Shown in pieces: positions 2,527 to 34,710 of a DNA stretch of 50,894 nt. The stretch's first letter is position 1; each line of letters opens with the position of its first letter. Source of the DNA: Hahellaceae bacterium (GTDB taxonomy: Bacteria; Pseudomonadota; Gammaproteobacteria; Pseudomonadales; Oleiphilaceae). Location: contig JADGDV010000026.1 in assembly GCA_016744695.1 (NCBI GenBank), positions 10,931-61,824 on the forward strand, written 5' to 3'. The notes below the pieces were generated by a model. It searched no databases, had not been told where the DNA came from, and worked only from the letters and a program-made list of their open reading frames with translations. The position numbers were made by a program, and so were the translations under genes.

Positions 2527-2855
2527 AAGGGAAGGATGTTCCTAAATATAAAGGAGTAAGTCTAATAATAGACTGATTTATACTAGAAAACCTAAAAATG
2601 GTAAAGAATAACCGATGGCTATAAGCCAAGTGATCGATTTCATTCATACATGACATTAGTTTATAGCTGTTTTTTAATGTTTTAACTTTACGTATATTAA
2701 CAGTGATGTAAGTACAATCAAACCGTTAACTGCGCAGCCCGATATTAACGACCCCATTTATACCCGCGCGGAGATTATGTTTTGAAACTGGCTGTCAAAT
2801 TGCTGAAATATATTTCTATAAGTAGTAATCAATTATTGTTAGAAGGGAGAACAAA
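2527..2855. promoter_or_regulatory. Intergenic region between divergent mrpA and lipoprotein cluster
   Basis: This 329-base AT-rich gap separates two divergently read genes and must hold at least the promoter for the plus-strand lipoprotein gene at 2856 and the one for the antiporter at 2526. I see no convincing gene, tRNA or strong -35/-10 pair. A good Shine-Dalgarno (GGGAG near 2845) precedes the plus-strand ATG. Confidence 0.4.
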
Positions 2856-3920
2856 ATGAGAATTTTCAATAAAAGTAATAGCCCTATCATCACAACTGGA
2901 TTGGTCGTGAGTAGTTTTCTAATCTCTGGCTGCTCTGGCACAGAAACACAAAAGGAAGCATCTATTGCTAGCGCGGTTGATACAATTCCTGTGACGATTG
3001 AAAACTATAAAGTAGCTGAGTCAGACGTCGCATTTGGCGGTACCGTTAAACTAGGAGGGGAAAATAAATTCGTCCACCTTCCTGTAAAAGAATTTGATTT
3101 GAGTAAGCAAGTCGTTGTCCGAATGAATCAAGATACGGTGTACAGCGGAGCGGTAGTTGATGCTTCAAAAGGTGTAAACATCACTTTGCCAGAAACCGAT
3201 GGTCGCTATATGTCTGCACAGATCACACAAAATGATCACTACGTTAATGACGTTTACATTGGCGCAGGTACATACCCAATTATAAGCGATACAGACAGCG
3301 ATTTTGTTCATATTAGTGTACGTACAGCCATTGATCTGAGTGACCCCGCAGATGTTGAAAAAGTAGTCGCTTTACAACAAGCCATAAAGCTAGACGTTAA
3401 AGGCGATAAAGTCTTTAAACAACCTAATTATAATATGGAGCAACTAGAAACGCTTAGAGTCAAACTTGCTAATGAAGCGTTAGCCATGGATTCAATGAAT
3501 AATATGCAAGGAGCTCGTGGTACGGTTGACGATCATTTGCACTTACTCGGCACGGCTGCAGGGTGGGGGTTGTTGCCTGATGCCAATGCGAGATACATCG
3601 GATATGTTCAAGAGGGTGGTGATGGCACCGGTTGTTATAGCGCAAACTATAAAATACCTCCATTTAATAACCCAGGGTTCTTCTCGATCACTATGTACGA
3701 TGCTGAAGGCTGGATGTTTGATGAAAGAGCGATTTTGAATAAAAACAACATTACTTTTAATGACGATGGTAGTTTTGATGCTAACTTCGGTGAATGTGGT
3801 GAGAATGCTAAAAACAACTTACCCATCACCCAAGGCTGGAACTTTATCATGCGGGTATACGAGCCAAAATTAGATCAATTGGACGCCTATAAATTACCAA
3901 CAGCAGTCAAGGTTAAATAA
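2856..3920 (+). CDS. DUF1254/DUF1214-type lipoprotein, short form
   Basis: A 354-residue exported protein. The N-terminus is a lipoprotein signal ending in lipobox LISGC, so it should be acylated on Cys26 and anchored in a membrane. The middle (about residues 85-155, with VVRMNQDTVYSGAVVD and a GRYMSAQI segment) matches the DUF1254 pattern. The C-terminal part (about 265-345, FFSITMYDAEGWMF then GWNFIMRVYEPK) matches DUF1214. The two domains usually occur together and no enzymatic activity is firmly established. It is the first gene of the plus-strand cluster, starts after a GGGAG Shine-Dalgarno and is followed by a strong terminator, so it may be expressed separately from the sulfatase downstream. 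The position suggests a role in handling sulfate or phosphate esters at the cell surface, but that is inference from context. Confidence 0.82.
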   Translation: MRIFNKSNSPIITTGLVVSSFLISGCSGTETQKEASIASAVDTIPVTIENYKVAESDVAFGGTVKLGGENKFVHLPVKEFDLSKQVVVRMNQDTVYSGAVVDASKGVNITLPETDGRYMSAQITQNDHYVNDVYIGAGTYPIISDTDSDFVHISVRTAIDLSDPADVEKVVALQQAIKLDVKGDKVFKQPNYNMEQLETLRVKLANEALAMDSMNNMQGARGTVDDHLHLLGTAAGWGLLPDANARYIGYVQEGGDGTGCYSANYKIPPFNNPGFFSITMYDAEGWMFDERAILNKNNITFNDDGSFDANFGECGENAKNNLPITQGWNFIMRVYEPKLDQLDAYKLPTAVKVK

Positions 3921-3930
3921 ATAATATAGG

Positions 3931-3965
3931 AACGAATGTACTACTAAAAAGTGCATTCGTTTTTC
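3931..3965 (+). terminator. Rho-independent terminator
   Basis: The arms AACGAATGTACT and AGTGCATTCGTT form a 12-bp stem with one mismatch and a short A-rich loop, followed directly by a T run. It lies 10 bases after the stop of the first lipoprotein gene and separates it from the sulfatase gene. Confidence 0.8.
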
Positions 3966-4038
3966 ATTGTTTGCGCCTATAAAACAAAAAGGTAATTGAG
4001 CTGAAATTAGCATCAAATTAAAATATGGAGATGAAATT

Positions 4039-6453
4039 ATGTATAAACTAAAAAAGATAAAAGCATTGATTGCTATCCCTTTAATGGGAGTTTTGGTTAC
4101 GGCTTGCGAAAAACCAGCAGAGTCTAAGCAAGTTGTTCAATCAGTAAAATCTGACTTTGTTGGGCATACCTTACCTTTTCCTGAGCCAGCGTCAGCAAGT
4201 ACGGCCGGGAAAACCCTGAAAGATTCAAAACACCAGTGGCGCAAAGCAGAAAATCATTTGCCGGCAGATGCACCCAACATCGTTATCTTTATGACGGATG
4301 ATGCCGGTTTTGCCAATTCAAGCGCCTTTGGTGGCCCTGTTAATATGCCAACGATGGAGCGCCTTGCTAAATCTGGCATTAGCTATAACGCATTTCATAC
4401 AACCGCACAATGTTCGGCTACGCGTGCAAGTTTACTTACTGGGCGAAACCATCATCGTGTAGGTGCAGGGCAAATTGCTGAATTCGCTTCAGACTGGGAT
4501 GGTTATGTAGGTGAAATCCCTAAATCGACAGCAACCTTTCCTCAAGTGCTTTCTGATTACGGCTACAACACGGCGGCATTTGGAAAATGGCATAACACAC
4601 CAATAACTAATATTACAAAGCTAGGTCCATTCGACCGATATCCAACAGGAATGGGGTTTGATTACTTTTACGGTTTTATGGCAGGCGAAACCTCGCAGTT
4701 CGAACCGATGTTGTTTGAAAATACCAACCCCATTAACGTGCCTCACAACCCTAAGTATCACTTGACCGAGGATTTAGCTGAAAAAGCGATCCAATGGATG
4801 AGAACAAGCAGAACGCTAGAGCCTGAAAAGCCATTCTTGCTTTACTTCACGCCTGGTGCTGTACATGGGCCTTTTCATGTATTTAAAGAGTGGGCTGACA
4901 AGTATGATGGAAAATTTGATGAGGGCTGGGAAGCTTTACGTCAGGTAACCTTTGAGCAACAAAAAGAAATGGGATGGATTCCGCAGAACGCTACTTTGAA
5001 CCCACTGATGAAAGGTATGCAGAAATGGAGCGATATTCCAACATCACAAAGAGAGTTTCAAGCTCGCTTGATGGAAATCTTTGCCGGCTTCCTGGAACAT
5101 ACCGATGTTCAATATGGAAAAATTGTAGATGAGATAAAAAACCAGGGATTACTCGATAATACATTGATTATTTATATTAACTCCGACAACGGCCCTTCCG
5201 CCGAAGGTTATAATGGTACTATCTCCGAACTGTTGGCACAGAACACAATGGAGTCCACCGTTGAGCAACAAATTGAGGTTCTCAACACAGAGTATGGCGG
5301 TTTAGATGCACTCGGTGGACCAACACTTGAGGTGATGTATCACCACGGTTGGACCTATGCTGGGGCGACACCATTTCAGGGTGTAAAATTACTCGCAGCA
5401 TATATGGGCGGAACCCGTACCCCGTTGGTAATTTCCTGGCCGAAACAAATTAAGCATGACGGTAAGGTGCGTAATCAGTTTCATCATGTGAATGATATTG
5501 CGGCGACTATTTACGATGTATTGGATATTACTCCGCCTAAAGTGGTTAATGGTGTGGAGCAGCAAGCCTTAGATGGAAAATCGATGCTTTATAGTTTTGA
5601 TAAGCCTGAGGCTAAGGGAACTAAAAAGACGCAATATTTCGAGCTAATGGGCAGTCGCGGTATCTATCATGATGGATGGTTTGCAGGAACCTTTGGTCCC
5701 AAAGCACCTTGGACTTCAGATCCTTCGGGAGTTGTTAATTTTGAGCCAGAGAAAGATACCTGGGAACTGTACAACCTGACTGAAGACTTTTCGCAGTCAA
5801 AGGATCTCGCCAAAGAACACCCAGAAAAACTGGCTGAGATGAAAACTATTTTTGATAAAGAAGCCACGGAAAATCTTGTGTATCCTATCGGAGCTTCTTA
5901 CTACACCGTATTTTTTAGTCCTAGCGAGATGCCTGCTTCATCCCTGACCGAATGGACGTTCTATGAAGGTCAAGACAGGATTCCTGAAGCCTTAGCACCC
6001 AAGTTTTTGAGTGGGCGCTCTTCTATTGCCATTATCGATGCTGAAATAAATAAAGATGCCGAAGGCGTGTTGTTTGCGGTTGGAGGAACATCTTCCGGGT
6101 TCACAGCTTATATGGACAAGGGACTATTAAAGGCTGAGTACAATGCAATGACCCTGAATCGTTATAAAGCTTCATCAACATCTCCGATTCCAACGGGCAA
6201 AGTTAGAATTGAAGTGAAAACTGAGTATGACGGTAATGAGCGAATCGGTCCTGCAACACTGACCTTAACGGTTAACGATAAGCAAGTGGCGCAAATGCGT
6301 ATTGAGCGATCCGTTCCATCACTACACACGGCATCTGAAACCTTTGATGTGGGTATCGATTTAGGCTCACCAGTTGCTATGGATTACCTCGATAGAGCCC
6401 CATTTGAGTTCAACGGAAAAATTAACAGCATTAATATTAAATATATCGATTAA
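4039..6453 (+). CDS. Arylsulfatase-type sulfatase lipoprotein (copy 1)
   Basis: An 804-residue type I (formylglycine) sulfatase that hydrolyses organic sulfate esters. The N-terminus is a lipoprotein signal with lipobox LVTAC (Cys23), so it should sit on the outer face of a membrane. Metal-binding Asp87-Asp88 lie in NIVIFMTDDAG. The signature CSATRASLLTGRN has Cys125 as the residue to be converted to formylglycine. HHR and GKWHN segments and the INSDNG motif follow as in the alkaline-phosphatase superfamily. The last ~120 residues, ending in a DLGSPV and FNGKI pattern, form the C-terminal domain seen in long (about 780-residue) bacterial arylsulfatases. A GGAG Shine-Dalgarno supports the start. 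It is closely similar over its whole length to the gene at 10337. No formylglycine-generating enzyme is encoded in the window. The substrate is unknown. Confidence 0.95.
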   Translation: MYKLKKIKALIAIPLMGVLVTACEKPAESKQVVQSVKSDFVGHTLPFPEPASASTAGKTLKDSKHQWRKAENHLPADAPNIVIFMTDDAGFANSSAFGGPVNMPTMERLAKSGISYNAFHTTAQCSATRASLLTGRNHHRVGAGQIAEFASDWDGYVGEIPKSTATFPQVLSDYGYNTAAFGKWHNTPITNITKLGPFDRYPTGMGFDYFYGFMAGETSQFEPMLFENTNPINVPHNPKYHLTEDLAEKAIQWMRTSRTLEPEKPFLLYFTPGAVHGPFHVFKEWADKYDGKFDEGWEALRQVTFEQQKEMGWIPQNATLNPLMKGMQKWSDIPTSQREFQARLMEIFAGFLEHTDVQYGKIVDEIKNQGLLDNTLIIYINSDNGPSAEGYNGTISELLAQNTMESTVEQQIEVLNTEYGGLDALGGPTLEVMYHHGWTYAGATPFQGVKLLAAYMGGTRTPLVISWPKQIKHDGKVRNQFHHVNDIAATIYDVLDITPPKVVNGVEQQALDGKSMLYSFDKPEAKGTKKTQYFELMGSRGIYHDGWFAGTFGPKAPWTSDPSGVVNFEPEKDTWELYNLTEDFSQSKDLAKEHPEKLAEMKTIFDKEATENLVYPIGASYYTVFFSPSEMPASSLTEWTFYEGQDRIPEALAPKFLSGRSSIAIIDAEINKDAEGVLFAVGGTSSGFTAYMDKGLLKAEYNAMTLNRYKASSTSPIPTGKVRIEVKTEYDGNERIGPATLTLTVNDKQVAQMRIERSVPSLHTASETFDVGIDLGSPVAMDYLDRAPFEFNGKINSINIKYID

Positions 6454-6551
6454 ATGTAGATAAAAATTCCGATGTAATTCCTGTTTACCCATTATGGCTA
6501 AACAGATGGTGAAAAAAATATTATTATCGTTTTAATCAAAAAGGAAAAAAG

Positions 6552-8078
6552 ATGAATAGCACTAGAAATATTTCCTCTATTGCGCTTACATTATCAGCCT
6601 TGATGCTTGCTTCTTGTGCATCTACGACCGATTCACAAAATACAAAAGCGCCCCAATATGCTGCGGATGTACCTGAATATTTACTTACCCCTGATAAGGT
6701 AAAAACCGATTTACTGCGTAATCTCGAGTTTTTCGATGGTATGCCAAGCGATGCTACCGTAAAAAAAACCTATGACTTTCTTGATGTATCACGCGGTGTT
6801 GAGGCTTTTCTTAGCGGCATGCCCGCAGCTTCCATTTATGCGATGCTTGAAGGGCTGAAAGAGGCAGGTTTAGAGCCGGGGGACTTAGCGGTTTGGGCAG
6901 ACTTATTGGATGCACGCGGCCTATTATTAACGGCGCAATCAACCACGCCGTATGCCTTTGCTGAGATTGATTTGAAAGGTGGTCCCATTGTCGTAGAAGT
7001 ACCGCCCGCTGTTCTTGGCACACTTGATGATGCCTATTTTCGTTTCGTGACTGACGTTGGCCTGACGGGACCTGATAAAGGTAAAGGCGGTAAGTATCTG
7101 TTTGTCGGCCCTGACTATGAAGGTGATATTCCAGAAGGTTACTTTGTTGCCAAATCAACGACCTATCGTCACTGGTTATTAATGCGGGTTTTTGTGAAGG
7201 ATGGCGACTTGAAGGCATCGACAAGAGGCCTAAGAGAATCGTTTCGAGCTTATCCTCTAGCGCAGGCCAATAATCCACCCAAGCAAAAAACATTCAACCT
7301 TTCTGGTAAGCAGATTAATACGATTCATGCGAATGATGAACATTTCTATAAGGAGCTTAACGCGGTTGTTCAATATGAGCCTGCCGATGCTTTCAATCCT
7401 GATCTCGTTGGGCTATTTGCGTCTATCGGCATTAAAAAAGGTAAGCCTTTTGCCCCCGATGCACGAATGAAGAAAATCCTGAAAGATGCGGCTGCAATCG
7501 GTAACGCTACCGCTCGATCTATTACGTTTCAACCGCGTAAGAAAGCAGCCTACTTCTACCCAGATCGTCAGTGGTATACCTCTTTCTCTGGTGGTCACGA
7601 CTTTATGGATAACGGCGAACTGGTTTTAGATGATCGCATTATGTTCCATTATGCCGCTACGGGTATTACACCTGCGATGGCAACGCCAAAGGTAGGCACA
7701 GGCTCAGCTTATGCGGCGACGGTAAAAGATTCGAAAGGAAACTACCTAGATGGCGGGAATACTTACAAGGTGACATTACCTTCGCCCATCCCTGTCAATA
7801 ACTTTTGGTCATTTATGGTGTATTCAGGTCAGCATCGTTCGATGTTAGAGACAGACCAAAAATCAGCCGGTCTTGACAGTAATATGCCAGCAGTTAAACC
7901 CAATAAAGATGGATCGTATACCATTTGGTTTGGGCCAAAAGCACCAAAAGGTAAAGAAGGTAACTGGATTCAAACGATGCCAGGAAAAAGCAACCTTACC
8001 ATTTTACGCCTTTATGGACCGCTAGAACCTTGGTTTGATAAAACTTGGAAGCCAAGTGATTTCGAGCTAGTAAAGTAA
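6552..8078 (+). CDS. DUF1254/DUF1214 lipoprotein, long form
   Basis: A 508-residue exported protein with a lipoprotein signal ending LMLASC. The N-terminal half (about residues 60-200, including RGVEAFLSGMPAASIYAML and the GKGGKYLFVGPDY segment) is a DUF1254 domain. The C-terminal quarter, with FWSFMVYSGQHRSML, WIQTMPGKSNLTILRLYGP and a final DKTWKPSDFE, is a full DUF1214 domain. It is the longest and most canonical of the three family members here. It lies about 100 bases after sulfatase copy 1 with no T-tailed terminator between them, so co-transcription is plausible. The biochemical role of the family is not established. Repeated pairing with sulfatases suggests binding or processing of the same class of substrate, which is inference. 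Confidence 0.88.
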   Translation: MNSTRNISSIALTLSALMLASCASTTDSQNTKAPQYAADVPEYLLTPDKVKTDLLRNLEFFDGMPSDATVKKTYDFLDVSRGVEAFLSGMPAASIYAMLEGLKEAGLEPGDLAVWADLLDARGLLLTAQSTTPYAFAEIDLKGGPIVVEVPPAVLGTLDDAYFRFVTDVGLTGPDKGKGGKYLFVGPDYEGDIPEGYFVAKSTTYRHWLLMRVFVKDGDLKASTRGLRESFRAYPLAQANNPPKQKTFNLSGKQINTIHANDEHFYKELNAVVQYEPADAFNPDLVGLFASIGIKKGKPFAPDARMKKILKDAAAIGNATARSITFQPRKKAAYFYPDRQWYTSFSGGHDFMDNGELVLDDRIMFHYAATGITPAMATPKVGTGSAYAATVKDSKGNYLDGGNTYKVTLPSPIPVNNFWSFMVYSGQHRSMLETDQKSAGLDSNMPAVKPNKDGSYTIWFGPKAPKGKEGNWIQTMPGKSNLTILRLYGPLEPWFDKTWKPSDFELVK

Positions 8079-8121
8079 GTTCTAGATTTGAAATAGTAAA
8101 GTGATAGCTATTGCTACAACC

Positions 8122-8148
8122 ACCGCTATTGCACTTTTGCAGAGCGGT
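8122..8148 (+). terminator. Hairpin between lipoprotein genes, possible terminator or attenuator
   Basis: ACCGCT and AGCGGT pair, with an inner TGCA/TGCA stem closing a CTTT loop. A weak T-rich stretch follows about 5 bases later. It lies between the 508-residue lipoprotein and the next gene. It is imperfect and may only reduce read-through. Confidence 0.35.
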
Positions 8149-8191
8149 GAGTAGTTTTCCATTTGACATGCATGAGAAACGAGAATTGAAA

Positions 8192-9247
8192 ATGAATTTT
8201 AATATGCAGCAATTCCTAAGGATAGGATTAGCGTTTTTGACAGTAGGTGTTGTCTCGTTAGAGGCCAAGGAGGCCGTATCTGACTCCCCCAAAACAATCC
8301 CCGTTACTTTAGAACAATTTCCTACTGCTGAGACTCATCACATGATTAATGTTTCAGTTAAAACTCTTGATAGTTTTGGTAAATGGACGCATGTTCGCGG
8401 CTTTACACCGCTTGATGAACAAAATGTTGTTCGCATGAACCGCGATACACTTTACTCCTCATTAGTACTGGATCTTAACGAGCCTGCGACTCTAATTAAG
8501 CCAGACTCTAAGGGGCGGTATCAGTCTATCTTAGTCATTAATGAAGGGCATTTTTCTAAGCTAACGGTCTATGAGGCTGGCGAGTACAAGCTGACGAAAG
8601 AAAATATGGGCAGTCGTTATGTTGCGATTATCGCGCGTACGCTTGTTGATGCAGAGGATCCAAATGACCTAGATGAAGCTTACAAAATCCAAGACGGCTT
8701 AAAAGTCATTCAGAAAAATAAGGGCGAGATAGATCTACCTAATTGGGATCCTGTTGCACTGGGTGAAATACGCGAAGCGCTTAAAGTTTTAGGAAGTTAT
8801 CAACCCAATCGCGACAAAGCGTATGGTGCCAGCAGCGAGAAAGTTAACCCTATCAACCACCTTATTACCACCGCAGATCAGTGGGGTGGCTGGGAGCCTG
8901 AGCACGCGACGTATCAGTCGTATTTTCCGCAAAAAAATGATGGTAAAACAGCATACACATTAACCCTAAAAGATGTTCCCGTACGTGATGGCGCTTTTTG
9001 GTCAATCAGTGTTTATAACGACGAAGGGTATTTCCAGCAGAACGAATTTGAAAAATATGTCGTCAATAGTCGCAAAGCAAAAATAGATAAAGATGGTGCA
9101 GTTACAATCCATTTTGGTGGTGATTCATCACAGACAAATTTTTTACCTATTATGCCTAACTGGAATTACATGCTGCGAATCTACTTACCGGATACGTCAT
9201 ATTTTGATGGGACTTGGAAGGCTCCTGAAGCGAAGGCAGTTAGATAA
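8192..9247 (+). CDS. Secreted DUF1254/DUF1214 protein
   Basis: The frame is open from 8111, but I prefer the ATG at 8192. It gives a normal signal peptide (MNFNMQQFLRIGLAFLTVGV, cleavage probably near LEA-KEA) and follows a GAGAA stretch. The result is a 351-residue protein without a lipobox, so it is probably soluble in the periplasm. The DUF1254 part contains NVVRMNRDTLYSSLVLDLN and a GRYQSILVINEGH segment; the DUF1214 part contains FWSISVYNDEGYF and ends NWNYMLRIYLPDTSYFDGTW. It is most like the short family member at 2856, with the same RMNxDTxYS signature. It probably shares a transcript with the acid phosphatase gene just downstream. Function unknown. Confidence 0.85.
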   Translation: MNFNMQQFLRIGLAFLTVGVVSLEAKEAVSDSPKTIPVTLEQFPTAETHHMINVSVKTLDSFGKWTHVRGFTPLDEQNVVRMNRDTLYSSLVLDLNEPATLIKPDSKGRYQSILVINEGHFSKLTVYEAGEYKLTKENMGSRYVAIIARTLVDAEDPNDLDEAYKIQDGLKVIQKNKGEIDLPNWDPVALGEIREALKVLGSYQPNRDKAYGASSEKVNPINHLITTADQWGGWEPEHATYQSYFPQKNDGKTAYTLTLKDVPVRDGAFWSISVYNDEGYFQQNEFEKYVVNSRKAKIDKDGAVTIHFGGDSSQTNFLPIMPNWNYMLRIYLPDTSYFDGTWKAPEAKAVR

Positions 9248-9350
9248 AAAAAGAAGGAGTAAAAATGAGAAGCAGAGAATCGAGTTTCAGTTCTTTGTTT
9301 CTTATGTTTTAGTTCTATGCACAAAGAATAGTATTGAAAAGGACGTTTCT

Positions 9351-10214
9351 ATGAAAAATAAAAAAATTCCGATGATCCAAAGTATTTTGGGTTGTGTGGT
9401 TATTTCGTTGTTAACAAGTTGTTCAAGTTTTAATACGAAAAATAAACTTGAACCTGTACCCGAAATACATCCAGGTATTTTACAAGGGTATTTACCGGTT
9501 AAGACATTGCCTAATAGTTTGGCATTAATACCACCGCCCCCTGCAGAAGATTCTGTTGCCTTTGCTCTTGATGAGAAAGTGAATTTCGAAAGCCTTGCAT
9601 TACAAGACACTCCTCGTTGGAAATTAGCAGCGCAAGATGCTGATCTGAGCTTTCCTGCAGTAGCTGGTACTTTCTCGTGCGCATTAAATGCCCCTATCTC
9701 TGAAGAAGAAACCCCGCAGCTTTATAGGCTGCTACATCGAACCTTAGCGGATGCTGGACTTTCTAGTTATTCAGCAAAGAACCACTACGATCGAACGCGT
9801 CCGTTCGTTCTGAATAAGCAGGCTACCTGCAGTCCAAGTGACGAAGAGGCGCTAAGAAATGATGGCTCATACCCTTCAGGGCATACGGCGATTGGCTGGG
9901 CTTGGGCGCTGATTCTTACTGAAATTTCTCCAGAGCAGACCGATGCTATTCTCGCACGAGGCTGGGCGTTTGGCCAAAGTCGGACTATCTGTAATGTACA
10001 TTGGCAGAGCGATGTATTAATGGGGCGTATAACAGGCGCTTCTGCCGTTGCACAGCTGCATTCAAATCCAGAATTTCGTGCGGCAGTAGAGGCATCAAAA
10101 ATTGAACTTGAAGACGTTCGGGCAAAGGGATTAAAGCCTGTGCGAGATTGTAAGGCGGAAGCAGATGCGCTGTTGGAATATCCGCAGTCAGCACCTTGGC
10201 CAGCTAATAAATAA
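9351..10214 (+). CDS. Class A nonspecific acid phosphatase, lipoprotein (PAP2 superfamily)
   Basis: A 287-residue exported phosphatase. The frame is open further upstream, but the ATG at 9351 has an AAAAGGA Shine-Dalgarno and begins a lipoprotein signal with lipobox LLTSC (Cys24). The phosphatase signature is complete: KNHYDRTRPF (K-x6-RP), GSYPSGHTA (PSGH), and SRTICNVHWQSD (SR-x5-H-x3-D), whose His is the phosphohistidine nucleophile in this family. PhoN/PhoC-type enzymes act in the periplasm or at the surface on many phosphomonoesters. Being a lipoprotein is less usual for this class and fits its neighbours. It is probably co-transcribed with the gene at 8192 and is followed by a hairpin. 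The natural substrate is unknown. Confidence 0.93.
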   Translation: MKNKKIPMIQSILGCVVISLLTSCSSFNTKNKLEPVPEIHPGILQGYLPVKTLPNSLALIPPPPAEDSVAFALDEKVNFESLALQDTPRWKLAAQDADLSFPAVAGTFSCALNAPISEEETPQLYRLLHRTLADAGLSSYSAKNHYDRTRPFVLNKQATCSPSDEEALRNDGSYPSGHTAIGWAWALILTEISPEQTDAILARGWAFGQSRTICNVHWQSDVLMGRITGASAVAQLHSNPEFRAAVEASKIELEDVRAKGLKPVRDCKAEADALLEYPQSAPWPANK

Positions 10215-10272
10215 TAACTATTAATAAAATTGATATTAAATGCATCGATTAATAATACGATTTAAATTAAGC

Positions 10273-10303
10273 GTGATCTTTGTTATTCAAAGATCGCATT
10301 ATT
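10273..10303 (+). terminator. Hairpin after acid phosphatase gene, terminator-like
   Basis: GTGATCTTTG and CAAAGATCGC form a 10-bp stem with one G-T wobble and a five-base loop, followed by an AT-rich tract with only short T runs. A related hairpin occurs after the second sulfatase at 12767. Confidence 0.5.
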
Positions 10304-10336
10304 AACCTTTCATGATGTTCATAGAGGCACACTATA

Positions 10337-12745
10337 ATGAAACGAAAAAATATCAGAGCGCTTATCGCTATTCCTTTACTAGGAATGCTAGTCAGTGCAT
10401 GCCAAGAGACAGCAGATACTCAGACGGAAGTCAGTCTGAAAGGCGATGATTCTGGCAAAGTATTGCCATTTCCAGAGGCATCTTCGGCCAGTACTGTGGG
10501 TAAAACTCTGGCAGATTCAAAACATCAGTGGCGTGCCGATAAATCACGCCTGCCAAAAGATGCACCAAACATTGTTATTTTTATGACTGACGATGCCGGC
10601 TTTTCGAACCCTGAAGTTTTTGGTGGCCCTGTACATATGCCAACCATGGAGCGCCTGGCTAATACAGGTGTCAGCTACAATGCCTTTCATACTACGGCTA
10701 TGTGTTCTCCTACAAGGGCTTCCTTGTTAACGGGGCGCAACCATCATAGAGTAGGGGCAGGACAGATTGCAGAGCTTGCTTCGGATTGGGATGGTTATGT
10801 AGGAAAAATTCCCAAGTCGACCGCAACGTTTGCTACGGTACTTAATGAGTACGGCTACAACACTGGAGCGTTCGGAAAATGGCACAATACACCGGTAACG
10901 GATCTTACAAGAGTAGGTCCGTTTGACAGGTACCCTACAGGCCTTGGGTTTGATTACTTCTACGGCTTCATTGCCGGTGAAACCTCACAGTATGAACCTG
11001 TACTGTTCGAAAACACCAATCCCATCGAAGCGCCTCATGATTCCAAATATCACCTGACCGAAGATATGGCTGAAAAAGCCATCCAGTGGATGCGTACCAG
11101 CAAAACGCTCACTCCGGATAAGCCATTCTTTGTCTATTTCACACCGGGTGCGGTTCATGGTCCTTTTCATATCTTTAAAGAGTGGGCAGACAAATATGAC
11201 GGCAAATTTGATGAAGGCTGGGAAGTGCTCAGAACCATGACCATTAAAAAACAAAAAGAACTGGGATGGATCCCTCAGGATGCCGTTCTCAATCCGCTAC
11301 AAAAAGGCATGCAGAAATGGGATGATATCCCTAAGTCAGAACGAGAATTTCAAACACGATTGATGGAAATCTATGCCGGGTTCCTAGAACACACTGATGT
11401 GCAGTACGGAAAAATTGTTGATGAGATAGAACGACAAGGATTGCTCGATAATACCTTGGTTATCTATATTAACTCCGATAATGGTCCTTCGGCAGAAGGC
11501 ATGAACGGCACTATCTCTGAATTATTGGCTCAAAATAGTATGCCATCTACCATTGATCAGCAGATTAAAGTACTCAGCAAAGATTATGGTGGAATGGATG
11601 CTCTGGGTGGTCCAAAGCTCGATGTTATGTATCACCATGGATGGGCTTTTTCAGGCTCAGCACCATTTCAGAGCACCAAATTGGTCGCCGCACATCTAGG
11701 TGGAACCCGCACCCCGCTTGTTATTTCCTGGCCTAAAAAGATCAAGCACGATGGAAAAGTCCGCTCGCAGTTTCATCATGTTAATGATATTGCGGCAACG
11801 ATTTATGAGATACTTGATATCACACCTCCTGATGTTGTAGATGGTTTCAAGCAACTGCCACTTGATGGGGTTTCCATGGCTTATACATTTGATAACCCTG
11901 ATGCGAAGGCTGCTGATAAAACCCAATATTTTGAGATCATAGGTAGTCGTGGGATTTACCATGATGGTTGGTTCGCAGGAGCTCAAAGTCCCAGAACGCC
12001 TTGGTCGACCGACATCTCTGCCGTTTGGGACTGGGATCCAGCGAAAGATGAATGGGAGCTGTACAACCTAAACGAGGATTATTCTCAGTCAAAGAACCTC
12101 GCCAAAGAAAACCCAGAAAAACTGGCTGAGATGAAGATTATTTTTGATAAAGAAGCTACGGAAAACCTTGTGTATCCTATCGGTGCTTCCATATACACAT
12201 TACTTATTAGTCCCAGCGAATTACCCTCTTCACCGCTGTTGGAGTGGACCTTTTATGAAGGGCAAAACCGTATTCCAGAAGCAATGGCTCCAAAATTCAC
12301 AAGTGGGCGGTCTAAAGTGGCTGTGATTGATGCAGAAATCGGAAAAAATGCTGAAGGGGTACTTTATGCCCTTGGTGGTATTTCATCAGGGTTTACTGTT
12401 TACATGGATAAGGGGGTTTTAAAAGCTGAGTATAATGCGATGACTCTGAACCGTTACAAGATTGCTTCACAAACAGCCATCCCGACCGGTAAGGTGAAAA
12501 TCGAAGTAGAGACAAAATATGATACTCAAGAGCGTATGGCTTCAGCAACTCTCACCCTAAAAGTTAATGGCAAGCAAGTTGGACAGGGACGTATCGAACG
12601 ATCGGTCCCAGGAGGTCATACTGCGTCAGAAACCTTTGATGTAGGTATGGACTTAGGTTCGCCAGTAGCACTGGATTATTTTGATCGCGCGCCGTTCAAG
12701 TTCAACGGAAAAATTGAGAAAATTGATATTAAATATATCGATTAA
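10337..12745 (+). CDS. Arylsulfatase-type sulfatase lipoprotein (copy 2)
   Basis: An 802-residue paralogue of the sulfatase at 4039, collinear along its whole length and identical at most positions. Lipobox LVSAC (Cys22), metal-binding Asp85-Asp86 in FMTDDAG, and the signature CSPTRASLLTGRN with Cys123 as the formylglycine precursor are all present. The motif is the classical C-x-P-x-R, whereas copy 1 has C-x-A-x-R. The C-terminal domain with DLGSPV and FNGKI is retained. An AGAGG Shine-Dalgarno precedes the ATG and a strong terminator follows. The two copies bracket three genes in the same orientation, so they form a 2.4-kb direct repeat. Differences are spread along the protein rather than clustered, which argues for an old duplication kept under selection, perhaps for different substrates. 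Confidence 0.95.
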   Translation: MKRKNIRALIAIPLLGMLVSACQETADTQTEVSLKGDDSGKVLPFPEASSASTVGKTLADSKHQWRADKSRLPKDAPNIVIFMTDDAGFSNPEVFGGPVHMPTMERLANTGVSYNAFHTTAMCSPTRASLLTGRNHHRVGAGQIAELASDWDGYVGKIPKSTATFATVLNEYGYNTGAFGKWHNTPVTDLTRVGPFDRYPTGLGFDYFYGFIAGETSQYEPVLFENTNPIEAPHDSKYHLTEDMAEKAIQWMRTSKTLTPDKPFFVYFTPGAVHGPFHIFKEWADKYDGKFDEGWEVLRTMTIKKQKELGWIPQDAVLNPLQKGMQKWDDIPKSEREFQTRLMEIYAGFLEHTDVQYGKIVDEIERQGLLDNTLVIYINSDNGPSAEGMNGTISELLAQNSMPSTIDQQIKVLSKDYGGMDALGGPKLDVMYHHGWAFSGSAPFQSTKLVAAHLGGTRTPLVISWPKKIKHDGKVRSQFHHVNDIAATIYEILDITPPDVVDGFKQLPLDGVSMAYTFDNPDAKAADKTQYFEIIGSRGIYHDGWFAGAQSPRTPWSTDISAVWDWDPAKDEWELYNLNEDYSQSKNLAKENPEKLAEMKIIFDKEATENLVYPIGASIYTLLISPSELPSSPLLEWTFYEGQNRIPEAMAPKFTSGRSKVAVIDAEIGKNAEGVLYALGGISSGFTVYMDKGVLKAEYNAMTLNRYKIASQTAIPTGKVKIEVETKYDTQERMASATLTLKVNGKQVGQGRIERSVPGGHTASETFDVGMDLGSPVALDYFDRAPFKFNGKIEKIDIKYID

Positions 12746-12766
12746 CAATAAGGGATGGTAGCTCGG

Positions 12767-12799
12767 CGTGATTTCTTTAATGCAGAGATCACGTTTTTT
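12767..12799 (+). terminator. Rho-independent terminator after second sulfatase
   Basis: CGTGATTTCT and AGAGATCACG form a 10-bp stem (one G-T wobble) with a seven-base loop, followed by six T residues. It ends the sulfatase transcript. Its sequence and its distance to the following ATG resemble the hairpin leader at 10273. Confidence 0.8.
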
Positions 12800-12826
12800 A
12801 TATTCAATTACTTATAAGGATGTATT

Positions 12827-13087
12827 ATGATAAAGAAAAAAATATCAGAGCACTTATCGCTATTCCTTTACTCAAAAGAAGTAAAATCTAGCACTGAGGA
12901 AGCACCGCTTACCGCTAAAGAAATTAAGGATCTGGTTGCCGGCTCCTGATGGTCCTTTTTATGCCGTTATGAGACTTTACGGTCCTAAAAAAGAAGCCCT
13001 TGAAGGTAAATGGGTTAACCCGCGCTTGTTAAAAAATAAGCGGGATTCATTTTCTGTTCTGCCCACCCGACAGCTGTTGACTATTTG
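12827..13087 (+). pseudogene. Collapsed third unit: sulfatase 5' end joined to DUF1254/1214 debris
   Basis: From 12827 the DNA repeats the first ~45 bases of the sulfatase gene at 10337 (shared stretch ATATCAGAGCxCTTATCGCT, continuing ATTCCTTTACT). One extra base after the ATG shifts the frame, and a TGA at 12947 ends it after 40 codons. A second frame beginning near 12942 then reads PDGPFYAVMRLYGPKKEALE and GKWVNP, the typical end of a DUF1214 domain, before a stop at 13085 that overlaps the 3' end of the SDR gene. The piece between 12885 and 12940 (STEEAPLTAKEIKDLVAG) resembles the start of a mature DUF1254 protein. I read this as the scar of a further cassette lost by deletion. No functional product is expected. 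Confidence 0.75.
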
Positions 13088-14007
13088 AATGCGTAGGCAA
13101 CTCCTGTTAACTCCTCTGATACTGACCAAAGCTTCGAGGCAACCGCTTTATCTTTTGAACGCTTACTTGATTGAACTTTCTTTGGATACCCTCTCCAGCC
13201 AAGGACTCTTGGGCCTATAAAATTGCCCCCTTGAATATACGGGTTAGTTGCCGCGTAGAGTGTCGGTAATGCCCCCATTTCAGCGCTTTGGGCAACACAG
13301 GCATTCATCGACTTCCAAAGGTTCTCTTGAAATGATGAGCTTTCCATTTGTGCTGACACTAGTTGAAGGTTAGTGGATGCATATCCGGGGTGGCTAGCAA
13401 CGCTAATTGCTTTGGCTCCCGATGTTTTTAATTTTCGCTCAAGCTCGTAGGTGAATAACAAATTGGCTAACTTGCTTTGGAAGTAAGCGCCCCAACCAGA
13501 ATAGCCATTACTCCAGTGGAGGTCATCAAAGTTAATTTTACCTGGGATATGCATCAGGCTACTGGTAGTGATGATACGTGCACCTTCGGTGTGAGCGATT
13601 AAATCCAGCAAGCGACCGGTTAGTGCAAAGTGACCTAAATGGTTCGTTCCAAACTGCATTTCAAAATTTTCAGTGGTTTTGCGGAATGGGATATCCATTA
13701 CACCGGCGTTATTACAAAGCAGGTCTATTGCTTTGAAGCGTTGATGTATTTCATCAGAAAATGTTTTGATTGAATCCATACTTGATAGATCGAGCGCTAT
13801 TATTTCAATTGATGCGTTTGGGTAAGCGCTTTTTATTTCTTTTGCTGCAGTCTCTGCCTTATCGATACTGCGACAAGCCATTACGACATGGCATCCTTTA
13901 CCGGCTAGCTCCTTTGCAGTAATTAAACCAAGACCACTATTTGCTCCGGTAACAATCGCTGTTTTTCCGCTTAGGCTTTGAATGTCGTTGCTTGTCCACT
14001 TTGGCAT
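13081..14007 (-). CDS. Short-chain dehydrogenase/reductase (retinol-dehydrogenase-like)
   Basis: A 308-residue classical-to-extended SDR that should oxidise or reduce an alcohol/ketone with NAD(P). The nucleotide-binding motif is TGANSGLG (about residues 19-26), followed by CRS after the second strand, which is common in NADP-preferring members. NNAG is at about 100, the catalytic Ser lies in ITTSSLMH and the active site Y-x-x-x-K in YFQSKLAN. The protein has the length and pattern of the retinol dehydrogenase/WW-domain oxidoreductase group; substrates of bacterial members are mostly unknown. A GAGA sequence precedes the ATG. It reads toward the sulfatase cluster and is preceded by a double palindrome (14056-14091) that looks like an operator. 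Confidence 0.92.
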   Translation of the reverse strand: MPKWTSNDIQSLSGKTAIVTGANSGLGLITAKELAGKGCHVVMACRSIDKAETAAKEIKSAYPNASIEIIALDLSSMDSIKTFSDEIHQRFKAIDLLCNNAGVMDIPFRKTTENFEMQFGTNHLGHFALTGRLLDLIAHTEGARIITTSSLMHIPGKINFDDLHWSNGYSGWGAYFQSKLANLLFTYELERKLKTSGAKAISVASHPGYASTNLQLVSAQMESSSFQENLWKSMNACVAQSAEMGALPTLYAATNPYIQGGNFIGPRVLGWRGYPKKVQSSKRSKDKAVASKLWSVSEELTGVAYAFK

Positions 14008-14636: not shown

Positions 14637-15794
14637 ATGACTGAATTAATCAGTAACATTAAATCGAATAACTCCGCTCAAGCTTCAAATAATGTTTTAC
14701 AGTGGCTGGCCGTTGCCGCGCTGGTTTATTTGCTTATTTGTGCGGTTAGTATCATTGGTGGTGGCTTTAAAATGGCTGCAGGCGGACATGCAAAGGAGTT
14801 GTTTGCATTCGCCAGCAACCCATTTGCAGGTTTGGTTATTGGCACTATAGCGACGGCATTAATCCAGTCGTCATCAACCGTCACGTCTATCATCGTTGGG
14901 CTAGTTGCTGGAGGGTTGCCCGTTTCAGTCGCAGTGCCTATGGTTATGGGGGCAAATATTGGTACCTCCATTACAAACACCATTGTTTCTTTAGGCCACG
15001 TTAAAGAAAAGAAAGAGTTTGCAAGAGCTTTTTCTGCTGCCACCGTACATGATTTTTTCAACGTGTTATCAGTTGTTATCTTTTTACCATTGGAGATGGC
15101 ATTTGGGTTTCTTGAGAAGTTTGGGGCCATGTTAGCCCACATTTTTTATGGCGGTAATGAGGCATCTATTAGCGGTTTGAATTTTGTTAAAGCAGCCACG
15201 TCGCCTGTGGTTGATAATGTGAAGCATGCATTACAATCATTGGGCGATCAGAGTGGCGGTATTGCTTTGATTATCCTTGGGATAGTACTGATCTTTATTT
15301 CTATCACGCTGGTGGGTAAGCTATTAAAAGAACTCATGGTCGGAAAAGCGCGCACCATTATGCATACTGCAATTGGACGAAGCCCTGTTTCGGGTATATT
15401 TTCTGGAACATTGGTTACCATGCTAGTGCAATCATCATCTACGACCACCTCACTCATGGTGCCACTGGCGGGCTCTGGTTCATTTAGTTTGAAGCAAATA
15501 TACCCGTTCACGTTAGGTGCTAATATTGGTACCTGTGTAACAGCTGTATTGGCTGCCACCGCAGTCACCGGGAATAGTGTTGCGGCCCTGCAAATTGCAT
15601 TTATTCACCTGACATACAATATTTTAGGTGTCATATTAATATACGGGGTGCCATTTCTTCGCTTTATTCCTGTGCGCTGCGCCGAGTGGATGGGGCGAAA
15701 TGCATCAGAAAACAAGATGGTAGCTTTAGTTTATATTCTGGGTGTGTTTTTTTTAATACCCGCGTTATGTATTGGTATTTCAAACGTTTTTTAG
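14637..15794 (+). CDS. nptA: Na+/phosphate symporter, NptA type
   Basis: A 385-residue inner-membrane protein of the Na/Pi cotransporter family. It holds the two inverted-repeat signatures of the family: ALIQSSSTVTSIIVGLVAGG (about residues 77-96) and MLVQSSSTTTSLMVPLAGSG (about 265-284). The paired QSSS motifs form the sodium/phosphate site. About eight to ten hydrophobic segments are visible. There is no C-terminal PhoU-like domain, so it belongs to the short NptA form rather than the YjbB form. A GAGG Shine-Dalgarno fits the ATG. A Pho-box-like site lies upstream, suggesting induction under phosphate limitation, and a small coiled-coil gene follows 16 bases after the stop. Phosphate freed by the nearby acid phosphatase would be a natural source, but that link is inferred. 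Confidence 0.93.
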   Translation: MTELISNIKSNNSAQASNNVLQWLAVAALVYLLICAVSIIGGGFKMAAGGHAKELFAFASNPFAGLVIGTIATALIQSSSTVTSIIVGLVAGGLPVSVAVPMVMGANIGTSITNTIVSLGHVKEKKEFARAFSAATVHDFFNVLSVVIFLPLEMAFGFLEKFGAMLAHIFYGGNEASISGLNFVKAATSPVVDNVKHALQSLGDQSGGIALIILGIVLIFISITLVGKLLKELMVGKARTIMHTAIGRSPVSGIFSGTLVTMLVQSSSTTTSLMVPLAGSGSFSLKQIYPFTLGANIGTCVTAVLAATAVTGNSVAALQIAFIHLTYNILGVILIYGVPFLRFIPVRCAEWMGRNASENKMVALVYILGVFFLIPALCIGISNVF

Positions 15795-27998: not shown

Positions 27999-28817
27999 TT
28001 AGCCTAGCATCTTCTTAACACCCATTAGCAAATTAGATACTTTGTAATAATTTGTTGGGAGTAATCTATAGAGCACGTCGACTAATTTTGCGTCTGCTCC
28101 GATTAACACCCTAAAGGTTTTTTTGCGCATACCTTTTTCTATCACTGCGGCCGCTTTTTCTGGGCTTGTGCGCGCCATAGTCTGAAAATGGTTAGCAAAA
28201 TCGTTTGGTTTATCGTTGTCTGTTTCTGCAAAATTAGCAATATTAGTTTTAATGCCTCCAGGCATTACACATATGACGTCAATATTCTTTTTACCAAAAA
28301 TAAGGTCTTGTTTTAATGCTTCACTAAAGCCTCGTACTGCAAACTTTGATGCATGATAAGGTGCCATCATTGGCATGGTAATGAGACCAAAAATAGATGC
28401 GACGTTTACTATTAGACCTCGCTCTGATTTCTCTAATAGTGGAAGCATTTCACGGCAACCAATAACAACACCGTTTAAATTAACATCCATTACTTTATCG
28501 AAGAGTTGTTCTGAAGTTTCATGAAAGAAACCAAATGAGCTCATACCTGCGTTATTGACCAATACATCAAGGTAGCCAGGGCCACTATTGATGTCTGACA
28601 TCAGGCTTTGCCAATCGCCTTTCGAGCTGGCATTAGCCGTTTTTGATATCAGAATTGCATCACCCAGTTCTTTTGATGTTGTTTCTAAATTGTCGGTATT
28701 GATATCGGTTAGAATTAATTTAGCACCTTGCGAGGCAAGTAAGCGTGCGAGCGCTTGCCCTATGCCTGAGCCGGCTCCAGTGATTAGAACTATTTTACTT
28801 TGCCATGTAGTGGTCAT
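27999..28817 (-). CDS. Short-chain dehydrogenase/reductase in monooxygenase operon
   Basis: A 272-residue classical SDR. TGAGSGIG (about residues 14-21) binds the nucleotide, NNAG follows the fourth strand, Ser in VNVASIFG and Y-x-x-x-K in YHASKFAV complete the catalytic set. A GAGAG Shine-Dalgarno precedes the ATG. It is the last gene of a three-gene minus-strand operon, 9 bases after the hydrolase stop. It probably oxidises an alcohol that is the substrate or product of the flavin monooxygenase. Confidence 0.93.
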   Translation of the reverse strand: MTTTWQSKIVLITGAGSGIGQALARLLASQGAKLILTDINTDNLETTSKELGDAILISKTANASSKGDWQSLMSDINSGPGYLDVLVNNAGMSSFGFFHETSEQLFDKVMDVNLNGVVIGCREMLPLLEKSERGLIVNVASIFGLITMPMMAPYHASKFAVRGFSEALKQDLIFGKKNIDVICVMPGGIKTNIANFAETDNDKPNDFANHFQTMARTSPEKAAAVIEKGMRKKTFRVLIGADAKLVDVLYRLLPTNYYKVSNLLMGVKKMLG

Positions 28818-28826
28818 ATTTGCTCT

Positions 28827-29627
28827 CTAATTATTTGCTGAAACAGGTTGTTTGTCTGCGTGTAGCCAGCCAAAAATAGTGCGTTTAATCTCTGGGAAGT
28901 AGCTGCCTCCAATGGTCCAATGACAAGCACCTGGCAATACTTTTAAGGTTGCTCTGCCAGAGTATTTCATCGCAATTTTTCGTTGGATTTTTATAGGGGT
29001 TATTTTATCCGCTGTACCGCCAATAATGAGAACCGGACAATTAATATTTTGGTAGTTTACCGTGGTGGCAGGCTTTCTAAATAAGAGCCACATACTGATC
29101 TGCATAGAAGCCCAGCCAGACTCAAAGGTGCATTTTTGAATAATGTCCTGTCGTACAAAGGCTGTTTGTGAATTGGCTATACCGTAACAAATATTTTTCA
29201 GTAATAAATTGGTCGTGGACCGCCATAAGGGAAACTTGAATAAATTGTGCCCAAAGGTTCGCATGACCGACCAGCTCCAGCCATTAATTCCTGCAGGTGC
29301 TGCTGATGAAATTAAAACAAGCTTGTTACATTTATATTTAGCTGCAATTAGTTGCGCCAATAACCCTCCCATGGAATGCCCCACAATAATGGGCGGCTCA
29401 TCGAGTGTTTCAATTAACTGGCTTAATGATGCAACATAGTTTTGAACGCTAGATCTAGCTAGGGCCTTTCTTTTGACTGCATTTAGTTCGTTGCGTGGGT
29501 AATGAAGTGGCAACCTAGGTGTATGGACCCGGTAGCCTTGATCTTCAAACGCATCTTTCACATCGACTAATGCGTCTGGGGTACTCCACATACCGTGGAT
29601 TAAAACGACGGGAGGGGTAGTGTTCAT
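28827..29627 (-). CDS. Alpha/beta hydrolase in monooxygenase operon
   Basis: A 266-residue alpha/beta-hydrolase. The ATG at 29627 is chosen because GGAG lies seven bases before it and it yields MNTTPPVVLIHGMWS, the first strand and oxyanion HG of the fold; the frame is open 75 bases further. The nucleophile elbow is GHSMGG, and a late His lies in GACHWTIGG. There is no signal peptide. It starts 7 bases after the monooxygenase stop. A Baeyer-Villiger-type oxygenase makes esters, so an esterase as the next enzyme makes biochemical sense. Confidence 0.91.
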   Translation of the reverse strand: MNTTPPVVLIHGMWSTPDALVDVKDAFEDQGYRVHTPRLPLHYPRNELNAVKRKALARSSVQNYVASLSQLIETLDEPPIIVGHSMGGLLAQLIAAKYKCNKLVLISSAAPAGINGWSWSVMRTFGHNLFKFPLWRSTTNLLLKNICYGIANSQTAFVRQDIIQKCTFESGWASMQISMWLLFRKPATTVNYQNINCPVLIIGGTADKITPIKIQRKIAMKYSGRATLKVLPGACHWTIGGSYFPEIKRTIFGWLHADKQPVSANN

Positions 29628-29634
29628 AAATCTC

Positions 29635-33475: not shown

Positions 33476-33483
33476 GATGAGTC

Positions 33484-34710
33484 ATGAAGTATTTCCTTTT
33501 AGTGTTAATGATGTTTTTTGTACAGTCATCCTCAATGGCGGCGATGACTCACGGCAAACATGGTGCATCAAGAGCTAGCCTATTACCTGCATGCCAAGAA
33601 CCGAACGCGTTGCCATCACCCCATTGTGGTCTGGTGCCAACGACGGTGTTTAGCAAAGGCCCCAATGATAATGACGTGCTTTATGCTGTTTTTAGTCAAA
33701 ATGGACATATCTACCTCGCTACCTCTACGGATAAAGGTCAAACCTTTACGTCGCCAACTGCCGTAAATCGCACACCTGAAGCCATTTATGATGATGGTGA
33801 AAATAGGCCCAAAATTATCGTGAGCGAGAAAAACGAAATTTTTGTTTCGTGGACACATAAAACACCAGGGCGCTACTCTGGCGATGTGCGTTTTGCGAGG
33901 TCTCTTGATGGTGGTCAGAGTTTTGATAAGCCCATTACTGTGAACTCAGATAGGGCCTTGATCAGTCACCGTTTTGATGCCATGTCGATAGATAGCCAAG
34001 GACGACTCTATCTAATTTGGATTGATAAAAGAGACCAGAATAATCGTGGGGCGGCGCTTTATTATGTGGTCTCTGAAGACTCTGGCGCGAGCTTTTCATC
34101 AAACCGAAAGCTAGTGGATAACAGCTGTGAGTGCTGTCGTATCGCGGTTGATCAAGATCATCAGGGGAAGATAGTAGCTTTATGGCGTCATGTGTTTCCG
34201 GGAAACATACGTGATCATGCCATCGCCTATGTTTCACCCGAGGCAAAGCCAGCAAACAGCCAGTTACTAAGAGCAACTAATGATGACTGGATGATTGAAG
34301 GCTGCCCCCATCATGGCCCCGATATATCTATAGATTCACAAAACATCGCTCACATGGCTTGGTTTACACAAGGCGAAAAGCATAAGGGTTTGATTTATGG
34401 TCAGTATGATTTTAAAACACAGAGTACAGGCTACGAAAAGGTTATAGAGGCGTCTGCTGGAGCATCGAGACCACAAGTACAAGTCATGGGCGATGCGGTT
34501 TATCTCATGTGGAAACAGTTTGATGGAAAGGCGATGACCCTAAAAGTCCAGCGTTCCGAGAACGGGGGTAAGACATGGAAGGATAGTGAGTCAATCGCAA
34601 GCACGCTTAATGGTTCTGATCACCCTGACTGGATTACTTCCCAATCAAAACTTTATGCCGTGTGGCACACTCAATCTGAAGGGTTACGGCTGTTTGAGGT
34701 TGGTCAATGA
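33484..34710 (+). CDS. Secreted BNR-repeat (sialidase-like) protein with CECC motif
   Basis: A 408-residue exported protein with a signal peptide cleaved near SMAA. It has at least four Asp-box/BNR repeats (STDKGQTF at 81, SLDGGQSF at 140, SEDSGASF at 197, SENGGKTW near 370), predicting a six-bladed beta-propeller as in sialidases. It also has a conserved-looking CECC at residues 215-218 followed by HVFPGNIRDHA, and two more Cys near the N-terminus. I see no clear sialidase Arg triad or RIP motif, so true sialidase activity is doubtful. It follows the receptor by 8 bases and overlaps the next gene by ATGA. I infer a periplasmic or surface partner of the receptor that binds a metal or redox cofactor. 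Confidence 0.82.
   Translation: MKYFLLVLMMFFVQSSSMAAMTHGKHGASRASLLPACQEPNALPSPHCGLVPTTVFSKGPNDNDVLYAVFSQNGHIYLATSTDKGQTFTSPTAVNRTPEAIYDDGENRPKIIVSEKNEIFVSWTHKTPGRYSGDVRFARSLDGGQSFDKPITVNSDRALISHRFDAMSIDSQGRLYLIWIDKRDQNNRGAALYYVVSEDSGASFSSNRKLVDNSCECCRIAVDQDHQGKIVALWRHVFPGNIRDHAIAYVSPEAKPANSQLLRATNDDWMIEGCPHHGPDISIDSQNIAHMAWFTQGEKHKGLIYGQYDFKTQSTGYEKVIEASAGASRPQVQVMGDAVYLMWKQFDGKAMTLKVQRSENGGKTWKDSESIASTLNGSDHPDWITSQSKLYAVWHTQSEGLRLFEVGQ

Follow-up and report, generated by a model that had tools for sequence, protein, structure and literature searches.

A six-gene block of sulfatases, DUF1254/DUF1214 proteins and an acid phosphatase, and the recurrent linkage of DUF1254 genes to two hydrolase folds

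Two unrelated hydrolase folds, that of the formylglycine sulfatases and that of alkylsulfatase-type metallo-hydrolases, share one neighbour of unknown function in bacterial genomes, the DUF1254/DUF1214 proteins. This linkage is recurrent, and in the window analysed here, a stretch of 50,894 nucleotides from a Hahellaceae bacterium, DUF1254/DUF1214 genes form part of a block of six genes that is absent from this place in two genomes of the same genus. The pairing is real and widespread, and it is not exclusive to sulfatases. We propose, with a probability of about 0.5 for the explanation as a whole, that the block was acquired horizontally and equips the bacterium to use organosulfate esters, and that its DUF1254/DUF1214 proteins would be dedicated partners of sulfate-ester hydrolysis. 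The structure of one family member has been solved since 2007 and was deposited as that of a hypothetical protein. Now that two kinds of sulfate-ester hydrolase are linked to it in several phyla, this orphan family becomes testable, and the pairing suggests a missing component in the bacterial uptake and use of sulfate esters.

Gene content of the block and its absence from this place in two genomes of the genus

The preliminary description of this DNA had reported six consecutive genes for exported proteins on the + strand, at 2856-12745, and our analysis bears out both the run of genes and its family content: three proteins with DUF1254 and DUF1214, both domains in each, two sulfatases and one PAP2 protein, all with Pfam matches above the curated cut-offs (Table 1). 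The end given for the block, 13087, did not hold, as it overlaps by a few bases an opposite-strand SDR gene (13081-14007); the starts at 8192 and 9351 are the likely ATGs, one codon before 8195 and 9354. Five of the six proteins carry a lipobox cysteine when inspected by eye (ISGC, VTAC, LASC, LTSC and VSAC), in agreement with the five lipoproteins described earlier, and the fourth protein of the block (351 aa) has a plain signal peptide, likewise judged by eye. The two sulfatases are indeed near-duplicates, with 76% identity, and the six genes include neither a transporter nor a sulfatase maturase, again as described. A gene for a Na/Pi cotransporter lies 1.9 kb beyond the block (14637-15794).

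Table 1. Features of the block, with positions in the window.
Feature	Position	Strand	Evidence
Short DUF1254/DUF1214 lipoprotein, 354 aa	2856..3920	+	Pfam DUF1254 2.9e-10, DUF1214 3.9e-6
Terminator-like hairpin, 15 pairs (4 G-C), T tail, AT-rich	3928..3964	+	Consensus match only
Sulfatase 1, lipoprotein, 804 aa, FGly motif CSATR	4039..6453	+	Pfam Sulfatase 3.6e-60
Long DUF1254/DUF1214 lipoprotein, 508 aa, VPA0735-like	6552..8078	+	Pfam 4e-26, 4e-28
Short DUF1254/DUF1214 protein, plain signal peptide, 351 aa	8192..9247	+	Pfam 4e-11, 7.5e-17
Class A non-specific acid phosphatase lipoprotein (PAP2), 287 aa	9351..10214	+	Pfam PAP2 9e-19
Sulfatase 2, lipoprotein, 802 aa, FGly motif CSPTR	10337..12745	+	Pfam 1.8e-61
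Terminator-like hairpin, 12 pairs, T tail, directly 3' of sulfatase 2	12765..12795	+	Consensus match only
Stretch missing from same-genus genome G002	2586..13114	.	blastn of G002 intergenic stretch and gene map

The host genome (4.07 Mb, 77 contigs, 99.97% complete) has five DUF1254 places, three of them in the block, and five PF00884 places, two of them in the block. From sulfatase 1 to sulfatase 2 the intergenic gaps measure about 100-120 bp and are free of terminator-like sites in a consensus scan, which is weak evidence for an operon, given how the scan compares with shuffled sequence (17 terminator-like sites versus 11.4 in shuffles, and only 16 promoter-like sites versus 26.7). The hairpin that follows the first DUF gene suggests that this gene may be a separate transcription unit.

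In G002, a genome of the same genus, the two neighbours of the block, the SDR gene and the Mrp antiporter gene, are separated by about 175-200 bp, and blastn aligns the sequence on either side with window positions up to 2585 and from 13115 onwards (about 70% identity). Since the flanks are nearly joined, about 10.5 kb, comprising just the six genes, is extra relative to G002. The block is also missing from the same place in G003, where the next genes after Mrp are one for a metallo-hydrolase and one for ETF-QO, and where an AraC regulator and a related sulfatase lie no more than 3.3 kb from the ETF-QO gene; the comparison at this site covers G002 and G003 of the genomes G001-G004. We infer that the six genes were inserted as one block, a horizontally acquired cassette that would owe its origin to transfer, although loss in both G002 and G003 may be the alternative. 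Related long sulfatases are uncommon nearby, any match at 1e-30 being found in 11 of 58 relatives' genomes, the own genome included. G003 also contains (L217:454-8620) a DUF508-like gene and a broken sulfatase that are 5.4 kb apart and enclose a Phenol_MetA_deg barrel gene, together with lipoprotein-like genes.

Linkage of DUF1254 genes to sulfatases and metallo-hydrolases

Searching with both block sulfatases, we obtained at least 549 relatives, kept the best 80 loci and called DUF genes among ORFs of at least 120 aa with an HMM built here. DUF1254/1214 genes were present in 21 of these 80 best loci (of at least 549), and the figure was 17 among the 50 loci that extend 5 kb or more to either side; a first count with phmmer had given DUF-like matches in about 27 loci, including those of the own genome and those under G handles, and we used the stricter HMM count. 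In a different set of 50 loci, those in counted genomes, 12 were DUF-positive versus 0.51 genes expected, a figure derived by applying 164 DUF1254 places in 267.6 Mb to the 0.84 Mb of those loci. Record titles place the DUF-positive sources in Bacteroidota, Armatimonadota, Acidobacteria, Desulfopila, Mycobacterium, Gordonia, Microbacterium and the alpha-, beta- and gammaproteobacteria. By our own gene calls the layouts (S, sulfatase; D, DUF) include S-D-S-D in Algoriphagus (L090), S-D-D-S (L042, L085), S-S-D-D-S (L025), S-D-S (L067) and S-D-D-D (L047). The pairing put forward in the preliminary description thus keeps its gene order and reaches well past the close relatives; because it recurs in other lineages, we found, on that count, the opposite of the lack of association elsewhere that had been named as speaking against it. 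A 1596-residue ORF in Variovorax (L060) that resembled a sulfatase-DUF fusion was rejected as a shadow frame; the DUF gene of this locus is a distinct one that follows the sulfatase.

It is quite unlikely, in our view, that DUF1254 genes and sulfatases have no functional link and are accessory genes that gather in the same catabolic islands. Such gathering would agree with the fact that most members of each family are unpaired, 59 of the 80 sulfatase loci having no DUF partner in the stretch covered, and with the closeness of formylglycine and metallo-type sulfatases, among the matches listed, in two genomes (G293, G305). Against it stand the tight arrangement of the pairs, as DUF gene and sulfatase share a strand in 19 of the 21 DUF-positive loci by our own count, with at most one gene between them in 18 and within about 180 bp in 11, the alternating order of the two families, and the observation that DUF-positive loci are not the sulfatase-rich ones, two or more sulfatases occurring in 6 of 21 DUF-positive versus 25 of 59 DUF-negative loci.

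The many independent associations on the sulfatase tree argue in the same direction. On a FastTree phylogeny of 85 sulfatases (without L058, and with four plasmid loci and the two window copies), the label of having a DUF neighbour, carried by 25 rows, requires 23 changes, at least 18 of them forced by starred branches, compared with a mean of 21.8 changes in shuffles, 428 of 500 of which were as low; the tree has long branches (L123, which joined with L048, and L031), and short contigs may hide partners. The label is not clustered by clade, and the association therefore arose or was lost many times. Among the matches listed, the closest relative of both block sulfatases (77% identity) belongs to Tamlana fucoidanivorans of the Bacteroidota, in a locus ordered barrel - D - D - S - PAP2 with a weak barrel match (L019:2278-10907), which suggests that the sulfatase may have been transferred between phyla.

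On plasmids, DUF1254 was found in two of four sulfatase loci, and an annotated sulfatase in none of five DUF1254 loci, where annotation is incomplete. The plasmid pRLO149_94 of Roseobacter litoralis carries the order sulfatase - DUF1254 - transporter - sulfatase - SUMF1 and, like the block, has sulfatases flanking DUF1254; unlike the block, it has its own transporter/barrel gene and an FGE fragment, and no phosphatase is annotated.

Seen from the DUF side, the linkage extends to a second hydrolase fold. DUF1254 occurs in 41 of 199 genomes of the window's phylum, the own genome included; the 96 listed places outside the own genome fall into 76 regions, from which two G117 regions already in the class sample were left out, giving 74 loci, in 70 of which our own HMM finds the DUF gene. 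A sulfatase (own HMM, E 1e-8) is present in 9 of the 74, on the same strand as the DUF gene in 6 of the 9, against an expectation of 1.28 (Poisson P 8e-6), which is based on 215 PF00884 places across 39 genomes that total 189.9 Mb. Metallo-beta-lactamase fold proteins with an Alkyl_sulf_dimr domain, which are of alkylsulfatase type, form a recurrent neighbour cluster and occur in 5 of the 74 loci (L148, L158, L165, L175, L180) against an expectation of 0.23 (P 4e-6), based on 38 places. Both P values presuppose that genes are evenly spread and loci independent, and catabolic islands could raise the expectation; observed and expected sulfatases were called with different HMMs, against a baseline of genome-wide density and not of unrelated catabolic families. 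The two sets are disjoint, so 14 of the 74 loci hold one or the other enzyme, and 60 hold neither within about 7.4 kb. In the class sample, a sulfatase was found in 1 of 16 loci (L129, S-D-S), and the two G117 loci were without one.

SdsA-type alkylsulfatases, proteins with whose dimerisation domain recur beside DUF1254 genes, are unrelated in fold and mechanism (type III) to the block sulfatases. The metallo-hydrolase directly adjoins the DUF gene on the same strand in L148, L165 and L175; in these loci it is short (457-510 aa, stop to stop), and that of L165, the one scanned, lacks the Alkyl_sulf_C domain, so that sulfatase activity is not assured. About 14 of the 74 DUF loci appear, by eye, to hold a split version with short DUF1214-only proteins (L143, L146, L150, L155, L161, L209 and others), in which separate short DUF1254 and DUF1214 genes share a conserved gene context that yielded no sulfatase.

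The block proteins and sulfatase maturation

Both block sulfatases match PF00884 over its cut-off and carry the C/S-x-P/A-x-R motif, as type I formylglycine sulfatases do, and they have D85, D86, C123, R127, K181, H183, H274, D381, N382 and K448 in common. Sulfatase 2 matches the PDB arylsulfatase 4cxk (1.5e-53), which we take, together with 1hdh, to be an AtsA-like sulfatase of P. aeruginosa; the AtsA catalytic residue set aligns in both block sulfatases, as judged by eye against the 4cxk alignment, and the catalytic Asp, Lys, His and Asn residues presumably have the same roles as in AtsA. Alike in PF00884, in the FGly motif and in the aligned catalytic residues, the block sulfatases differ from the AtsA-like enzymes in an extra C-terminal part of about 200 residues, a lipoprotein anchor, their partner DUF1254 genes and a genome in which no canonical maturase was found. 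The chemistry of sulfatases and phosphatases and the anchoring of lipoproteins are known from their families.

The whole genome encodes at least four Cys-type FGly motifs (CSATR, CSPTR, CTAGR, CTPTR), and we found no canonical FGE or anSME in its 77 contigs. Nine of its ten FGE-family places lack the Cys pair present in the FGEs adjacent to sulfatases in L046, L049, L078 and L079, of which L078 alone also has a DUF gene, and the tenth is a 78-aa fragment; the FGE-like genes of the genome were therefore rejected as maturases. The anSME model reached at best 49 bits in the genome against a cut-off of 349, and two SPASM matches, one of which adjoins a siroheme-type methyltransferase and looks NirJ-like by eye, were dropped as maturases. 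Some bacteria mature sulfatases without FGE or anSME, and Cys-type sulfatases without an apparent canonical maturase pose a separate testable puzzle. Same-strand runs of an FGE-like gene, a sulfatase and a DUF gene occur in L078, L171, L191 and L203, the FGE-like calls in the last three being judged from the first residues, and a SUMF1 fragment is annotated in L115.

Three FGE-like proteins of the genome are lipoproteins (L225, L226, L227; G000:C33, C31, C74), and that of L226 lies near a VgrG-like gene, perhaps, by eye, a link to type VI secretion. Six long proteins in L235-L237 (G000:C53) appear mostly to combine a kinase with an FGE-like C-terminus whose residues vary, and near them lies a 343-aa reverse-transcriptase-like ORF with a YxDD motif (L236:5559-6587), an arrangement that we take to resemble a diversity-generating retroelement.

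The acid phosphatase scores 210 bits with the NCBIfam PhoC model, under its cut-off of 430, and its translation shows by eye the motif KX6RP..PSGH..SRX5HX3D, presumably the class A non-specific acid phosphatase signature. It resembles the class A phosphatases (PhoC) in its PAP2 domain and signature motif, and differs from PhoC in being a lipoprotein and in falling below the equivalog cut-off. The phosphatase named in the preliminary description is thus present in the block, whereas its place in a wider system did not stand: a PAP2 gene occurs in only 2 of the 21 DUF-positive sulfatase loci (L019, L060), so we rejected it as a core part and regard it as an occasional companion.

Among the DUF proteins, the 508-aa lipoprotein matches PDB entries 3vb9/2p3y (2e-72), and its AlphaFold model (pLDDT 83.8, pTM 0.82) superimposes on VPA0735 (2p3y) with a Foldseek TM of 0.83 by query and 0.91 by target length, with further matches to VPA0106 and 6ans. 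It shares fold and domain order with VPA0735 and VPA0106 of Vibrio parahaemolyticus (2p3y, 3vb9, 3u07), which were deposited as uncharacterised and for which we found no sulfatase link in the available portions of the literature on them. The model of the short form, covering the 351-aa protein, is weak (pTM 0.60), and Foldseek returned no confident relative of known function for either model. An N-x-D-T-x-Y motif is present in both short DUF proteins and absent from the 508-aa protein, N-x-D-T being altered to Q-S-T-T in the latter and to N-F-T-T in VPA0735. We rejected a cupin dioxygenase reading of the short fold (TM 0.18, no conserved metal ligands).

DUF1254/1214 might itself be an enzyme, a hydrolase or lyase acting in series with the sulfatases on the same compound, which we regard as unlikely, though less so than the absence of any functional link. 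Across 217 different aligned stretches the family conserves Asn, Asp, Tyr, Arg, Trp, Phe, Ser and Gly/Pro, of which the first five could line a pocket, several DUF copies occur per locus, and a glycosyl-hydrolase-like jelly roll has been predicted for a fungal DUF1214 protein, according to the part consulted of that source (PMC4634964). No catalytic triad or metal motif is evident, however, the N-x-D-T residues are lost in the 508-aa protein, and the weak bicupin resemblance of the short form (probability up to 0.80) comes without conserved metal ligands. A role for the DUF proteins in binding or presentation rather than in catalysis is our preferred reading, at somewhat less than even odds. 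An open-library literature search returned no paper pairing DUF1254 with a sulfatase and none naming DUF1254 and DUF1214 together; the parts consulted of five papers that name the DUF1254/DUF1214 families or VPA0735 (PMC10734457, PMC4634964, PMC3751524, PMC6710368, PMC2744874), and of one on the strain behind L024 (PMC6107682), mention no link between DUF1254 and sulfatases.

Neighbouring genes, substrate and proposed role

From the genes that we called ourselves in the 21 DUF-positive loci (minimum 120 aa, up to about 6.5 kb away), we assembled 117 neighbour proteins, excluding sulfatases and DUF genes, and counted families with two or more members. AraC-type regulators (7 proteins with HTH_18, 5 with Arabinose_bd), PhyH (4) and SDR (3) were the commonest, followed by Phenol_MetA_deg, OMP_b-brl_2, Omp85, PAP2, AMP-binding, GH2 sugar-binding domains and others with two each. 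The GH2-like domains are the only sugar-active type in the top 25 families, and no SusC, SusD or TonB-receptor family has two members among the 117. By Pfam, the six block proteins likewise include no SusC/SusD protein or CAZyme, so that the block does not qualify as a sulfated-polysaccharide utilisation locus.

The extracellular polymer suggested earlier as the substrate therefore gains no backing from these neighbours, as no polysaccharide-uptake family recurs (two or more members) among them. The larger reading of the preliminary description, a surface system that acts on an extracellular polymer or lipid by stripping off its sulfate and phosphate, strikes us as improbable: it would suit the lipoprotein nature of the sulfatases and their closest relative among the matches listed, at home in T. 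fucoidanivorans beside two DUF genes and a PAP2-barrel protein, and it is opposed by the lack of a recurring polysaccharide-uptake or CAZyme set near the pairs (families with two or more members) and by two Phenol_MetA_deg barrels (L067, L072), which hint at small compounds. A lipid may be the substrate. Taken together, the neighbours would fit small-molecule catabolism better than polymer breakdown, and a small ester is a rather likely substrate in preference to a polymer.

In the cassette that we propose, small esters would reach the lipoprotein enzymes through an outer-membrane barrel, and the two formylglycine sulfatases and the class A acid phosphatase, tethered as lipoproteins, would release sulfate and phosphate from them. 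The DUF1254/1214 proteins would most likely bind the ester or its product, presenting or holding it at the membrane, and would thus be organosulfate-binding proteins; as a second choice, they might carry out an enzymatic step just before or after desulfation. Our confidence in this explanation and in the alternatives is not mutually exclusive between them. That DUF1254 is functionally coupled to the sulfatases we consider probable. The AraC/Arabinose_bd regulators (5 of 117) and the outer-membrane barrels near the pairs count in favour of the cassette; against it count the absence of an outer-membrane barrel from the block itself, the 60 of 74 DUF loci and 59 of 80 sulfatase loci without a partner, DUF-positive loci that are not richer in sulfatases, the failure to find a canonical maturase and the shortness of the metallo-hydrolases. 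A broader possibility, to which we give somewhat less than even credence, is that DUF1254/DUF1214 is a periplasmic organosulfate-handling family, recruited as an operon partner on many independent occasions by two unrelated sulfatase classes (formylglycine and metallo-beta-lactamase fold), and a general, so far unrecognised component of sulfate-ester metabolism in bacteria.

Elsewhere in the window, a gene at 36112-38214 encodes a full-length, 700-aa SdsA-like alkylsulfatase (Alkyl_sulf_dimr, Alkyl_sulf_C, SCP2), the whole genome having four PF14863 places, and ahead of it, at 31370-35975, lie genes that by eye are TonB-dependent receptor-, BNR-, thioredoxin- and TonB-like. On the - strand at 27999-31149, genes for a flavin monooxygenase, an alpha/beta hydrolase and an SDR protein form a likely small-molecule catabolic set.
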